NCBI RefSeq assembly: GCF_005222785.1
Contig: NZ_STGH01000002.1
Coordinates: forward strand, 1-64,000
Direction of reading: 5' to 3'
From: Rhodobacter sp. SY28-1
GTDB lineage: Bacteria > Pseudomonadota > Alphaproteobacteria > Rhodobacterales > Rhodobacteraceae
Length of the DNA: 64,000 nucleotides
How positions within the stretch are numbered: the first letter of the stretch is position 1; each line of letters opens with the position of its first letter. Under the pieces are notes generated by a model. It searched no databases. It was not told the DNA's origin and saw nothing but the letters and a program-made list of their open reading frames with translations. The position numbers were made by a program, and so were the translations under genes. This document shows, one piece after another, positions 34,916-37,168 of the stretch.

Positions 34916-35040
34916 CGTTTCAACTCCGCTGAAGATTTGCACTAAGGTCGTAGCGTTTCAGCCGAAGGGCAAGGTCCGTTGACCAGTTGCTCAAAAAATC
35001 GGCGAAGACCTTGGTAAATCATGACATTTCCGTGACCTCA

Positions 35041-35061
35041 GCCATGCAGTTGCTGCATGGC
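35041..35061. promoter_or_regulatory. 21-bp palindrome between mrp and the DUF1127 gene
   Basis: GCCATGCA-GTTGC-TGCATGGC, perfect eight-base arms. It lies about 20 bp upstream of the proposed RpoH promoter and 126 bp upstream of mrp. TGCATCTGCAGCATG at 35086-35100 is a related half-symmetric sequence. No T-run, so an operator is more likely than a terminator; regulator unknown. Confidence 0.5.
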
Positions 35062-35081
35062 AGCATTGCCGAGGCCCGGTA

Positions 35082-35110
35082 TTGTGCATCTGCAGCATGT
35101 GGCCCATGTT
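35082..35110 (+). promoter_or_regulatory. Heat-shock-type (RpoH) promoter of the DUF1127-CcsR locus
   Basis: TTGTGC (35082-35087), 15 bases, then CCCATGTT (35103-35110). The downstream element matches the sigma-32 -10 form CCCCATNT closely; the upstream element keeps TTG of CTTGAA. In R. sphaeroides the equivalent locus is driven by RpoHI/RpoHII, so the match is expected. Start would be near 35117. Confidence 0.65.
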
Positions 35111-35164
35111 ACCCCTAACAGCGCGACAGAACGTTGCTGACCGAACCAAAGAGGCTTGAGTGAC

Positions 35165-35380
35165 ATGGCATATGTGAACAGCTCCTCCATCGCCCGCAAG
35201 GGTTTCGCCGACCGCCTGGTCGTGCTCCGTGACGCCGTCCTGACGGCAATTGCCCAGCGCCGGACCTACCTGCGCACCGTGGCCGAACTGAATGCGCTCA
35301 CCGACCGCGAGCTTGCCGATCTCGGCATCAGCCGCCTCGGGATCACCGAGATCGCGCATGAGGCCGCCTACGGCAAGTAA
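35165..35380 (+). CDS. ccaF1: Small DUF1127 protein, CcaF1-like
   Basis: A 71-residue basic protein whose C-terminal half is the arginine-rich DUF1127 domain (RRTYLRTVAELNALTDREL, then ADLGISRLGITEIA). In R. sphaeroides the DUF1127 protein CcaF1, encoded just before the CcsR sRNAs, binds RNA and affects sRNA maturation and RNA turnover. The same order is seen here: the stop codon is ten bases before the first CCTCCTCCC hairpin. ATG at 35165 with GAGG ten bases upstream. The name is by synteny and domain. Confidence 0.82.
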   Translation: MAYVNSSSIARKGFADRLVVLRDAVLTAIAQRRTYLRTVAELNALTDRELADLGISRLGITEIAHEAAYGK

Positions 35381-35390
35381 GAATTCGTGA

Positions 35391-35460
35391 GGTCCCCTCC
35401 TCCTCCCTGGGACCGAAACGATATGCGGCGGTGTCCGTCCTCCTCCCTGGACACCGCCGC
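35391..35460 (+). ncRNA. ccsR: CcsR-like sRNA unit 1 (two CCTCCTCCC-loop hairpins)
   Basis: Hairpin a: GGTCCC/GGGACC (35391-35396, 35409-35414) with loop CTCCTCCTCCCT. Hairpin b: GCGGCGGTGTCC/GGACACCGCCGC (35425-35436, 35449-35460), a perfect 12-base stem with loop GTCCTCCTCCCT. CcsR RNAs of R. sphaeroides are about 70-nt processed units with this two-hairpin form. Type X unit in the X-Y repeat. Confidence 0.83.
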
Positions 35461-35495
35461 CCCCATCCGGGGCCGAACAGCCCCAAACCGAGCCT

Positions 35496-35567
35496 GGTGA
35501 CTCACCCTCCTCCCGGGTCACCTGGTCTGCGCGGCGGGACCTCTCCTCCTCCCTGGTCCCACCGCGC
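35496..35567 (+). ncRNA. ccsR: CcsR-like sRNA unit 2
   Basis: Hairpin a: GGTGAC/GTCACC (35496-35501, 35517-35522) around a 15-base loop containing CCTCCTCCC. Hairpin b: arms 35529-35541 and 35555-35567, 13 bases with one mismatch, loop TCTCCTCCTCCCT. Type Y unit: weaker first stem, long GC-rich second stem. It is separated from unit 1 by a 35-nt spacer with CCCC/GGGG self-complementarity. Confidence 0.82.
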
Positions 35568-35580
35568 CACTTCTCCCGAA

Positions 35581-35649
35581 GGCCCCCTCCTCCTCCCTGG
35601 GGCCCAAGGATCGCGGCGATGCCTCTCCTCCTCCCGAGGTCATCGCCGC
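35581..35649 (+). ncRNA. ccsR: CcsR-like sRNA unit 3
   Basis: Hairpin a: GGCCCC/GGGGCC (35581-35586, 35599-35604) with loop CTCCTCCTCCCT. Hairpin b: GCGGCGATG/CATCGCCGC (35613-35621, 35641-35649) with an inner CCTC/GAGG stem presenting TCCTCCTCCC. Type X unit, preceded by the spacer CACTTCTCCCGAA that recurs before unit 5. Confidence 0.82.
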
Positions 35650-35684
35650 CCCCATTCCGGGGCGTGACCGCCCCAAACCTATCG

Positions 35685-35756
35685 GGTGACCTACCCTCCT
35701 CCCGGGTTATCTGGTCTGCGCGGCGGGGCCTCTCCTCCTCCCTGGCCCCTCCGCGC
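35685..35756 (+). ncRNA. ccsR: CcsR-like sRNA unit 4
   Basis: Hairpin a: GGTGACC/GGTTATC (35685-35691, 35705-35711), kept paired by two G-U pairs where unit 2 has Watson-Crick pairs, which supports a selected RNA structure. Hairpin b: GCGCGGCGGGGCC/GGCCCCTCCGCGC (35718-35730, 35744-35756), loop TCTCCTCCTCCCT; relative to unit 2, an A-T pair is replaced by G-C on both sides. Type Y unit. Confidence 0.83.
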
Positions 35757-35769
35757 CACTTCTCCCGAA

Positions 35770-35836
35770 GGCCCCCCTCCTCCTCCCTGGGGCCCAAGGA
35801 TCGCGGCGGTGCCTCCCTCCTCCCTGGCACCGCCGC
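35770..35836 (+). ncRNA. ccsR: CcsR-like sRNA unit 5
   Basis: Hairpin a: GGCCCC/GGGGCC (35770-35775, 35789-35794). Hairpin b: GCGGCGGTGCC/GGCACCGCCGC (35803-35813, 35826-35836), loop TCCCTCCTCCCT. Type X unit. The spacer CAAGGATC between its hairpins is the same as in unit 3. Confidence 0.82.
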
Positions 35837-35875
35837 CCCCATTCCGGGCCGAGAAGGCCCGACCCGTGATCGGGC

Positions 35876-35955
35876 GTCCCAACCTCCTCCCGGGACCTCG
35901 TGTCTTGCGGCGGCTCCCTCTCCTCCTCCCTGGGAGCCGCCGCCTTTCTCCCCTT
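35876..35955 (+). ncRNA. ccsR: CcsR-like sRNA unit 6 with terminal hairpin
   Basis: Hairpin a: GTCCC/GGGAC (35876-35880, 35892-35896) with CCTCCTCCC in the loop. Hairpin b: GCGGCGGCTCCC/GGGAGCCGCCGC (35907-35918, 35932-35943), loop TCTCCTCCTCCCT, followed by CTTTCTCC, so the last hairpin probably also ends the transcript. Type Y unit and end of the array. Confidence 0.8.
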
Positions 35956-36019
35956 GCAGCCCCTGCCCCACCGCGAAATAGTCCCGCGGTCAGCGCGACG
36001 AGCAGCAGCAAGGGACAGG

Positions 36020-37168
36020 ATGCGCCTTTCAGTCATTTCGGCCGCAACCGTGGCCGCCCTTGTCGGCTACGCCTCCTCGGTCGCGATCCTTCTGGCCGCC
36101 GCAACCGCACTGGGGGCGACGCCCGCCCAGACCGCCAGCTGGCTTCTGGCGATCTGTATCGGCAAGGCGATCGGCTCGGCTTTCCTCTCCTGGCTCGCAA
36201 AGGTCCCCGTGGTCCTCGCCTGGTCCACGCCCGGAGCAGCCCTCATCGCCGCCACCTCGGGCATCTCCTTCGCCGAGGGCGTCGGTGCCTTCGTCGTCGC
36301 GGGCCTCCTGATCGCCGCCACCGGCCTCATCCGCCCGCTGGGCGCCCTCGTCGCCCGCATCCCCGATGGCATCGCCGCCGCCATGCTGGGCGGGGTCCTT
36401 TTGCCCTTCTGCCTGAAGGGCGCCACCGCCGCGCAAGGCCTGCCCGCGCTGGTCCTGCCGATGGTCGGCGTGTTCCTGATCGTCCGGCTCTGGAACCCCG
36501 CCTTCGCCGTCCTCGCCGCTTTCGCGACCGGGATCCTTCTGGCGCTCGCCACAGGGTCCGACCTGACCACCCTGCAGCTCGCCGCCCCGGTGCTGGAGCC
36601 CGTCCTTCCTTCCTTCCGCCTCTCGGTCGTCCTCGGCCTCGGCCTGCCGCTCTACCTCGTGACCATGGCCTCGCAGAACCTGCCCGGCTTCGCGACCGTC
36701 CGCGCCGCAGGCTATGAGCCGCCCGTCTCTGCCGCCCTGACAACTACCGGGATCATCTCGACCGTCACCGCCTTCTTCGGCGCGCATACCGTCTCGATGG
36801 CCGCGATCACCGCCGCGATCTGCCTTGGCCCCGATGTCCACCCCGAGAAAGACCGTCGCTGGATCGTCGGCCTGTACTACGCCGCCGCCTGGCTGATCCT
36901 CGGCCTCCTCAGCCCCACCGTCCTCGACCTGATCGCCGCTCTCCCGACCGAGGTCGTCGCCACCCTCGTCGCCCTCGCGCTTCTGTCGCCCCTCACCGGC
37001 GCCCTGACGGGGGCCTTCGCGCATGCCGACCAACGCCTGCCCGCCGCGTTGACCGTAGTCGTCACCGCCTCAGGGATCGCCGCCTTCGGCATCGGCGCGG
37101 CCTTCTGGGGGCTGGTGGTTGGGCTAGCCGTCTGGGGGCTGGACCACCTGAAACTCCGCCGCGCCTGA
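36020..37168 (+). CDS. Benzoate/H+ symporter BenE family transporter
   Basis: A 382-residue polytopic inner-membrane protein with about eleven to twelve hydrophobic segments. VVLAWSTPGAALIAATSG (about residue 70) and LPLYLVTMASQNLPGFAT (about 208), followed by GAHTVSMAAITAAICLG, are BenE family blocks. BenE imports benzoate by proton symport, but no aromatic catabolic genes are near, so the substrate is uncertain. ATG at 36020 with AAGGGACAGG before it; about 75 bp after the sRNA array. Confidence 0.85.
   Translation: MRLSVISAATVAALVGYASSVAILLAAATALGATPAQTASWLLAICIGKAIGSAFLSWLAKVPVVLAWSTPGAALIAATSGISFAEGVGAFVVAGLLIAATGLIRPLGALVARIPDGIAAAMLGGVLLPFCLKGATAAQGLPALVLPMVGVFLIVRLWNPAFAVLAAFATGILLALATGSDLTTLQLAAPVLEPVLPSFRLSVVLGLGLPLYLVTMASQNLPGFATVRAAGYEPPVSAALTTTGIISTVTAFFGAHTVSMAAITAAICLGPDVHPEKDRRWIVGLYYAAAWLILGLLSPTVLDLIAALPTEVVATLVALALLSPLTGALTGAFAHADQRLPAALTVVVTASGIAAFGIGAAFWGLVVGLAVWGLDHLKLRRA

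Follow-up and report, generated by a model that had tools for sequence, protein, structure and literature searches.

A probable ccaF1-CcsR-type operon in Rhodobacter sp. SY28-1: twelve motif-loop hairpins behind a conserved promoter with a predicted LsrB-type box

The window analysed here, a 64-kb stretch of DNA, contains a locus that we read as a ccaF1-CcsR-type (CIN1) operon, in which a stress promoter would give rise to processed small RNAs (sRNAs) that pair with ribosome-binding sites; we assign this reading a probability of roughly 0.75. The features of such a locus are present, namely a DUF1127 gene upstream, two-hairpin units with CCUCCUCCC loops, and an RpoH-type promoter by sequence match. 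The array itself is a sound but unexceptional example of an established class, relatives having larger ones, and the part of the locus worth testing is the promoter circuit. If our reading of the promoter is true, a LysR regulator published as confined to Rhizobiales would be family-wide in Rhodobacteraceae, and it would control stress sRNAs which the available text of the R. sphaeroides papers credits to RpoH-type sigma factors only.

A short DUF1127 gene accompanied by CcsR-like RNAs is known in alphaproteobacteria as the CIN1 locus (quoted in the accessible part of PMC10253847). The same part of that source describes, for R. sphaeroides, an operon of ccaF1 and CcsR1-4 with an RpoHI/RpoHII promoter and processing by RNase E, CcaF1 being a protein of 71 aa (PMC10253847). 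The gene in the window has 71 codons counted from its ATG, and a longer frame from 35156 matches Pfam PF06568 with 43.8 bits (cutoff 23.3). Its stop codon ends at 35380 and the first motif lies at 35399, a gap of 21 nt by the measure of the 64-locus table described below, so that the DUF1127 gene reported directly upstream of the array in an earlier note, made from the letters of the DNA, is borne out. That note also named the array as CcsR-type and proposed a covariance-model search, which was run with Rfam: the CcsR1 model (RF02791) matches all six units with 35.0-43.6 bits (E 1.3e-6 to 3.8e-9), all of them below the gathering score of 65.3 bits, and the best ar14 (RF02344) score in the window, 41.2 bits, is below the gathering score of 58.8. 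Genome G077, which appears to be close kin of R. sphaeroides judging from its CcsR1 and SorY matches, has seven CcsR1 matches in a row; one of these, at 106.2 bits, exceeds the gathering score, and a SorY match of 115 bits likewise exceeds its own. The promoter and layout in G077 are the same as those of the window. Together with the gene and the six sub-gathering matches, this upholds the CcsR-type identity. With ccaF1-CcsR1-4 of R. sphaeroides (Cereibacter; RF02791) the window has in common the 71-codon DUF1127 gene, the array directly after it, two-hairpin units with CCUCCUCCC loops and an RpoH-type promoter. It differs by its six units in X-Y pairs, by covarying spacer hairpins, by the sub-gathering Rfam score, and by a two-box LTTR element that finds no mention in the accessible portions of the R. 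sphaeroides papers.

Table 1. Features of the locus, in coordinates of the window
Feature	Position	Strand	Remarks
Box 1, TGCAGTTGCTGCAT	35045..35058	+	TGCA-N6-GCAT; predicted LsrB-type LTTR site; -73 to -60 from predicted start
Palindrome TGCTGCATGGCAGCA	35051..35065		overlaps box 1
-35 core TTG	35082..35084	+	predicted RpoH-type
Box 2, TGCATCTGCAGCAT	35085..35098	+	TGCA-N6-GCAT; 40 bp after box 1, between -35 and -10
-10 CCATGT	35104..35109	+	predicted RpoH-type: C-14, C-13, A-12, T-11, T-9
DUF1127 gene, CcaF1-like	35165..35380	+	71 aa + stop; Pfam PF06568
H1 (unit X1, hairpin A)	35391..35414	+	motif loop; local folds; absent from global fold
H2 (unit X1, hairpin B)	35425..35460	+	motif loop; local and global folds
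S1, spacer hairpin without motif	35469..35484	+	global fold; in local fold a different 3-bp hairpin
H3 (unit Y1, hairpin A)	35496..35522	+	motif loop; local and global folds
H4 (unit Y1, hairpin B)	35529..35567	+	motif loop; local and global folds
H5 (unit X2, hairpin A)	35581..35604	+	motif loop; local and global folds
H6 (unit X2, hairpin B)	35613..35649	+	motif loop; local and global folds
S2, spacer hairpin without motif	35659..35674	+	global fold; in local fold a shifted 5-bp hairpin
H7 (unit Y2, hairpin A)	35681..35715	+	motif loop; local and global folds
H8 (unit Y2, hairpin B)	35718..35756	+	motif loop; local and global folds
H9 (unit X3, hairpin A)	35770..35794	+	motif loop; local and global folds
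H10 (unit X3, hairpin B)	35803..35836	+	motif loop; local and global folds
S3, spacer hairpin without motif	35845..35861	+	global and local folds
H11 (unit Y3, hairpin A)	35875..35900	+	motif loop; weakest stem, -7.2 kcal/mol; absent from global fold
H12 (unit Y3, hairpin B)	35907..35943	+	motif loop; followed by CTTTCTCCCC, candidate terminator

A DUF1127 protein scan gave 63 named loci, of which 37 with at least two exact motifs were retained; the 26 that were dropped (the motif is absent from 23 and single in 3) are mostly remote DUF1127 genes. The 64-locus table consists of these 37 loci, the window, 6 further pieces from the genus and 20 family loci found by the motif, and its entries are not all from separate genomes (L032 and L104 come from G022, L105 and L106 from G024). 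A DUF1127 gene lies upstream of 61 of the 64 arrays, 37 of which were found through the gene itself, and upstream of all 20 family loci found by the motif alone; the three arrays lacking it (L104, L105, L107) are pieces close to the end of a contig. A run of three exact motifs is found in 13 of 32 genus genomes and 92 of 296 family genomes, figures which are lower bounds because exact motifs were required. The unit number varies widely among relatives: the largest cluster of a locus holds from 1 to 26 motifs, again as lower bounds since contig ends cut several arrays, and at least 12 are present in 10 of the 63 tabulated loci other than the window. Hence six units are within the usual range. 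The comparison of unit number in relatives had been proposed in connection with the view that a six-unit array is a special expansion, and this view is not supported by it, the size of the window's array being ordinary. The largest tabulated array (L111) comprises 26 exact motifs, whose spacings recur as about 42, 47 and 51 nt. The short DUF1127 gene with CcsR-like RNAs is also the common ground with the cuckoo RNA family (CIN1 locus) of Reinkensmeier and Giegerich from 2015, whose members reportedly comprise 2 to 4 adjacent hairpins, whereas the arrays tabulated here run to 26 motifs. As a side observation, the 14 motifs of an array in Tropicimonas (L080, 2137-2626) belong to a repeat that is about 110 nt long and contains three hairpins (spacings 41, 29, and 41 or 40), a unit design that differs from that of the window. 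Furthermore, an entry titled as an Exiguobacterium profundum MAG (L062, CP059262.1) contains a seven-motif DUF1127 array of the Rhodobacteraceae type, and the title of the entry looks wrong.

The approximately 100 nt upstream of the DUF1127 gene are strongly conserved and contain, at 35045-35109, promoter elements that the earlier note had overlooked. For RpoHI and RpoHII, a TTG at -36 to -34 is described as important, as are C-14, C-13, A-12, T-11 and T-9 in tests with RpoHI (accessible part of PMC3441632). The TTG and all five positions of the -10 region are present in the window at the right spacing, and from this a transcription start at about 35118 is predicted. The core is not recognised by the pattern in 3 of 61 loci; over the remaining 58 the -10 bases are conserved to different degrees (C 28, C 40, A 47, T 43, T 52), and 39 of the 58 cores agree with a loose -10 pattern. 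Consensus scans of 34940-36100 returned 0 matches for sigma-70 promoters and 0 for terminators, including none at the candidate CTTTCTCCCC after H12.

Of 61 loci, 60 have at least one TGC(A/G)-N6-GCAT element ahead of the gene, compared with 1 of 479 background windows, and both boxes are found in 56 of the 58 core-bearing loci, 39 or 40 bp apart. Searched for as one pattern, the two boxes plus TTG turn up in 192 of the 296 genomes of the family, and the control gives no match. Thirty loci located by this pattern were examined, several of which already sit in the 64-locus table: 28 have a DUF1127 gene no more than 600 nt away, and two or more exact motifs lie downstream in 27. In S. meliloti, LsrB activates the sRNA NfeR1, whose loops carry the same motif, via TGCA-N6-GCAT at -72 to -60 or -57 (accessible part of PMC10746234). 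Box 1 agrees with this LsrB site in sequence and in position, as counted from a start that in the window is predicted and not mapped, and it is this NfeR1 box that constitutes the near-universal match in the promoters. An older VtlR/LsrB consensus derived from Brucella and Agrobacterium, GCAT-N3-TG-N3-T, was tried as the near-universal element and rejected, as it occurs in 19 of 61 promoters (background 9/486); in the window it is present at 35035-35047 on the reverse strand. With ar14/NfeR1 of Sinorhizobium meliloti (RF02344) the window has in common CCUCCUCCC in every hairpin loop and the LsrB box near the same place before the start (PMC10746234, as far as accessible). NfeR1 stands free as an sRNA of three hairpins and has a sigma-70 promoter; in the window the hairpins follow a protein gene, and the promoter core is RpoH-like.

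These data suggest that an LsrB-like LysR protein probably controls the promoter of the window via box 1, although the position of box 2, between -35 and -10, is odd for an activator. A candidate for this regulator is encoded in the same genome. The palindrome TGCTGCATGGCAGCA has one other exact copy there, flanked by a LysR gene on one side and a SorX/SorY-like sRNA on the other. At this locus (L135, 1332-2409; C3 of the same genome, outside the window) the LsrB-like LysR gene is followed on the same strand by the sRNA, whose SorX match of 52.0 bits is above the gathering score, and both a TGCA-N6-GCAT box and the palindrome lie between the two. The LsrB-like protein scores 248.8 bits against PDB 9HH1, which is the LsrB of A. 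tumefaciens (PMC11975290, available text), and 109.7 bits against the next PDB chain, while the closest other LysR protein of this genome scores 125.7 bits against it. By eye, the printed alignment with LsrB displays 51 identities in the first 65 residues. Since closeness was judged among PDB chains and this genome only, LsrB-like is the safe name. LsrB is said to occur solely in Rhizobiales (PMC11975290, available text). Each of 80 family genomes gave a match to the LsrB-like protein with E 1e-60 or better, at 48-89% identity when the genome of the window is set aside, and three of the 80 contain an internal stop. A SorX-like match lies beside the gene in 28 of 29 family loci, an Rfam SorX or SorY match at E 0.01 or better is present in 14 of the 15 LsrB-like loci searched, and the box is found near the end of the gene, between gene and sRNA, in 21 of 29 family loci (background 5/498). 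An LsrB-like gene adjoining an sRNA gene is likewise the arrangement of the lsrB/vtlR-abcR locus of Rhizobiales (PMC8844928, in part); here, the neighbouring sRNA is SorX/SorY-like by Rfam, and the protein is devoid of cysteine. As none of its 301 residues is a cysteine, redox-active or otherwise, thiol sensing in the style of LsrB appears unlikely.

The exact palindrome TGCTGCATGGCAGCA is present in 27 of 32 genus genomes (43 sites). Among 30 of the genus sites, 17 precede DUF1127 arrays, 11 adjoin the LysR gene and sRNA, and 2 are next to neither. The palindrome is found at the LsrB-like gene in 0 of 29 family loci; hence its sharing between array and LsrB-like gene is a feature of the genus. 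In the genome of the window, the one-mismatch sites L133 and L134 adjoin neither gene. At the loci L139 and L142 the exact palindrome occurs without array or LsrB-like gene, and these, which gave no Rfam match at E 0.01, are possible further sites of the same regulator.

Alternatively, the upstream boxes may be bound by another regulator, or the RpoH core alone may matter, the boxes being other promoter sequence. We regard this as quite possible, although we lean against it. The boxes are deduced from sequence only, the palindrome is missing beside the LsrB-like gene in all 29 family loci, and the R. sphaeroides papers, in their accessible portions, describe RpoHI/HII control of the ccaF1-CcsR operon and do not mention a LysR protein. 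On the other hand, the box and its near-identical position coincide with those at NfeR1, where gel shifts demonstrated the LsrB site (PMC10746234, in part), the genus places the exact palindrome both before DUF1127 arrays and beside the LsrB-like gene with its SorX-like sRNA, and the first 65 residues are largely those of LsrB. In one library of open-licence publications we found none joining LsrB with CcsR, which does not establish absence from print. On control by the LsrB-like protein a broader view can be built, to which we give even odds: an ancient circuit of Alphaproteobacteria would connect an LsrB-type LysR regulator to sRNAs with CCUCCUCCC loops (in rhizobia, NfeR1; in Rhodobacteraceae, CcsR arrays), with the regulator gene beside a second sRNA (AbcR in the former, a SorX/SorY-like one in the latter); in Rhodobacteraceae the regulator would act without thiol sensing via an RpoH core, and loop number would be tuned by tandem duplication.

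Turning to the array, exact CCTCCTCCC occurs in 12 copies at 35399-35930, all on the + strand, and nowhere else in the 64-kb window, while the shuffle control has a mean of 1.55 and a maximum of 6 copies. The genome as a whole holds 84 copies and the reversed-pattern controls 99, so that the cluster is rare and the motif alone is not. Three pairs of nearby copies (C1, C4, C5) were considered as further arrays in this genome and rejected, as no matching arms are visible by eye; this inspection covers 6 of the 72 other copies. All 12 copies in the window form a local hairpin around the motif when the motif is forced to be unpaired, and, left unconstrained, 12 of 12 chosen stretches fold as motif-loop hairpins (-7.2 to -28.0 kcal/mol). 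The region 35381-35960 (580 nt) folds at -293.6 kcal/mol (z = -11.35), and 0 of 100 shuffles is as low. In this unconstrained global fold the motif lies in a hairpin loop in 10 of 12 cases; H1 and H11 are missing because their arms pair mutually. This pairing across the array may be a switch, or else an artefact of similar stems. The twelve stem-loops first described, each with the motif in its loop, are thus recovered, and the motif scan, the repeat spacing and the local folds confirm their grouping into six two-hairpin units. Of the composite repeat proposed earlier, the three copies stand and the length does not, the spacing being 188-190 nt and not 189-191 nt.

Compensating stem changes are seen between copies, with GGGACC/GGTCCC in H4 and GGGGCC/GGCCCC in H8. 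In an arm-swap test, each hairpin with its own arms was compared to hairpins with arms exchanged between loci (30 rounds, up to 34 loci). Hairpins A reach -15.86 with their own arms and -10.08 with swapped arms (standard deviation of swap means 0.29; n = 141, 34 loci), and hairpins B -23.87 and -16.86 (0.33; n = 142, 34 loci). The gap amounts to about 20 (A), about 21 (B) and 7.6 (spacer hairpins, see below) standard deviations of the swapped means, values which are not independent-sample p-values as the sequences are kin. Both lines of evidence support selection on RNA structure in the array hairpins, as had been argued from the stems of the window, and the stem changes of relatives, which on that argument should not break pairing, are found to preserve it.

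The alternation of X and Y is a difference in linkers: the motif-to-motif distance is about 65 nt after X units and about 43 nt after Y units, and alternating long and short linkers are also found in relatives, e.g. L032, L033, L034, L038 and L040. The long linkers, those after X units, contain a small hairpin without the motif that was overlooked at first reading. A middle hairpin of at least 4 bp is present in 98 of 102 long linkers (S1 of the window is among the four without one in the local fold) versus 4 of 356 short ones; these counts alone are modest evidence, because 1322 of 2040 shuffled long linkers also fold one. For hairpins of at least 5 bp, the numbers are 95 of 102 and 994 of 2040 shuffled. 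As a MAFFT alignment, judged by eye, had misaligned the spacer stems, arm swapping was used here as well, giving -10.69 for own and -7.97 for swapped arms (standard deviation of swap means 0.36; n = 70, 28 loci). It may be argued that the spacer hairpin is merely a motif hairpin that has decayed and plays no part: the motif is absent from it, the loop is variable, short linkers manage without it, and the middle hairpins of L116 and L130 are plainly motif hairpins with an altered loop. This appears rather unlikely to us, given that long linkers exceed their shuffles at both thresholds and that the arms of the spacer hairpin co-vary across 28 loci.

As to candidate targets, the genome of the window has 23 sites where an ATG comes 3-10 nt after GGGAGGAG (reversed control 6); 15 of these sites open frames of at least 100 aa, and eight open shorter ones. 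The 15 include pyruvate dehydrogenase E1 alpha (pdhA; TIGR03182, 511 bits, cutoff 393.85), acetate-CoA ligase, a 3-oxoacid CoA-transferase subunit, acetoacetyl-CoA reductase, a GFA-family protein, four solute-binding proteins, and one frame (L249) with no family match. Within 25 nt of the pdhA start, the contiguous complement to the loop is 8 nt in 22 of 29 genus loci and 7 nt in 5, the genome of the window being among these 27, and it is below 7 nt in the other 2; these genomes are closely related, and pdhA was picked after the match in the genome of the window had been seen. In the control, 109 mechanical open reading frames of the window, taken at the best of their alternative starts, 4 reach 7 nt and none reaches 8. 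This complementarity makes pdhA the best predicted target of the loops. By its title, one paper ascribes to CcsR RNAs a modulating effect on the pyruvate dehydrogenase complex and C1 metabolism, and the match at the pdhA ribosome-binding site would offer a direct mechanism for the effect named in that title. An anti-Shine-Dalgarno mode has been described for related RNAs (accessible parts of PMC10746234 and PMC3927594), and such a mode for the window's array would fit these papers on relatives.

Structure, co-variation, conservation of locus and promoter, and the complementarity of loops and pdhA are computed directly. Based on this dataset, we hypothesize that a single RNA is transcribed from a stress promoter with an RpoH-like core, which the LsrB-like LysR protein probably activates through box 1. 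RNase E, with involvement of CcaF1, would cut the 3' UTR as reported for R. sphaeroides, yielding six RNAs of about 70 nt, each of two hairpins with CCUCCUCCC loops. These loops would pair with purine-rich ribosome-binding sites (GGGAGGAG), so that genes for uptake and central carbon metabolism, with pdhA as the best predicted target, would be translated less; more units would mean more loops per transcript. The spacer hairpin after X units would probably separate the folding of neighbours and position the cut, which is the weakest step of the model. That the hairpins mainly form an RNase-resistant 3' UTR protecting or timing the DUF1127 mRNA, or a sponge for CcaF1, with loops that have no regulatory role in trans, seems improbable: the first motif does follow the gene by 20-25 nt in 45 of 61 loci, and the stems vary freely yet keep pairing, but a fixed loop is not expected from a purely structural role (although the fixity of this 9-mer is partly a selection effect, as the motif served to choose many loci), loci found through the promoter alone also have the motif downstream (27 of 30, some of them already tabulated), and in NfeR1, which has the same loop, repression is lost on loop mutation (PMC10746234, in part).
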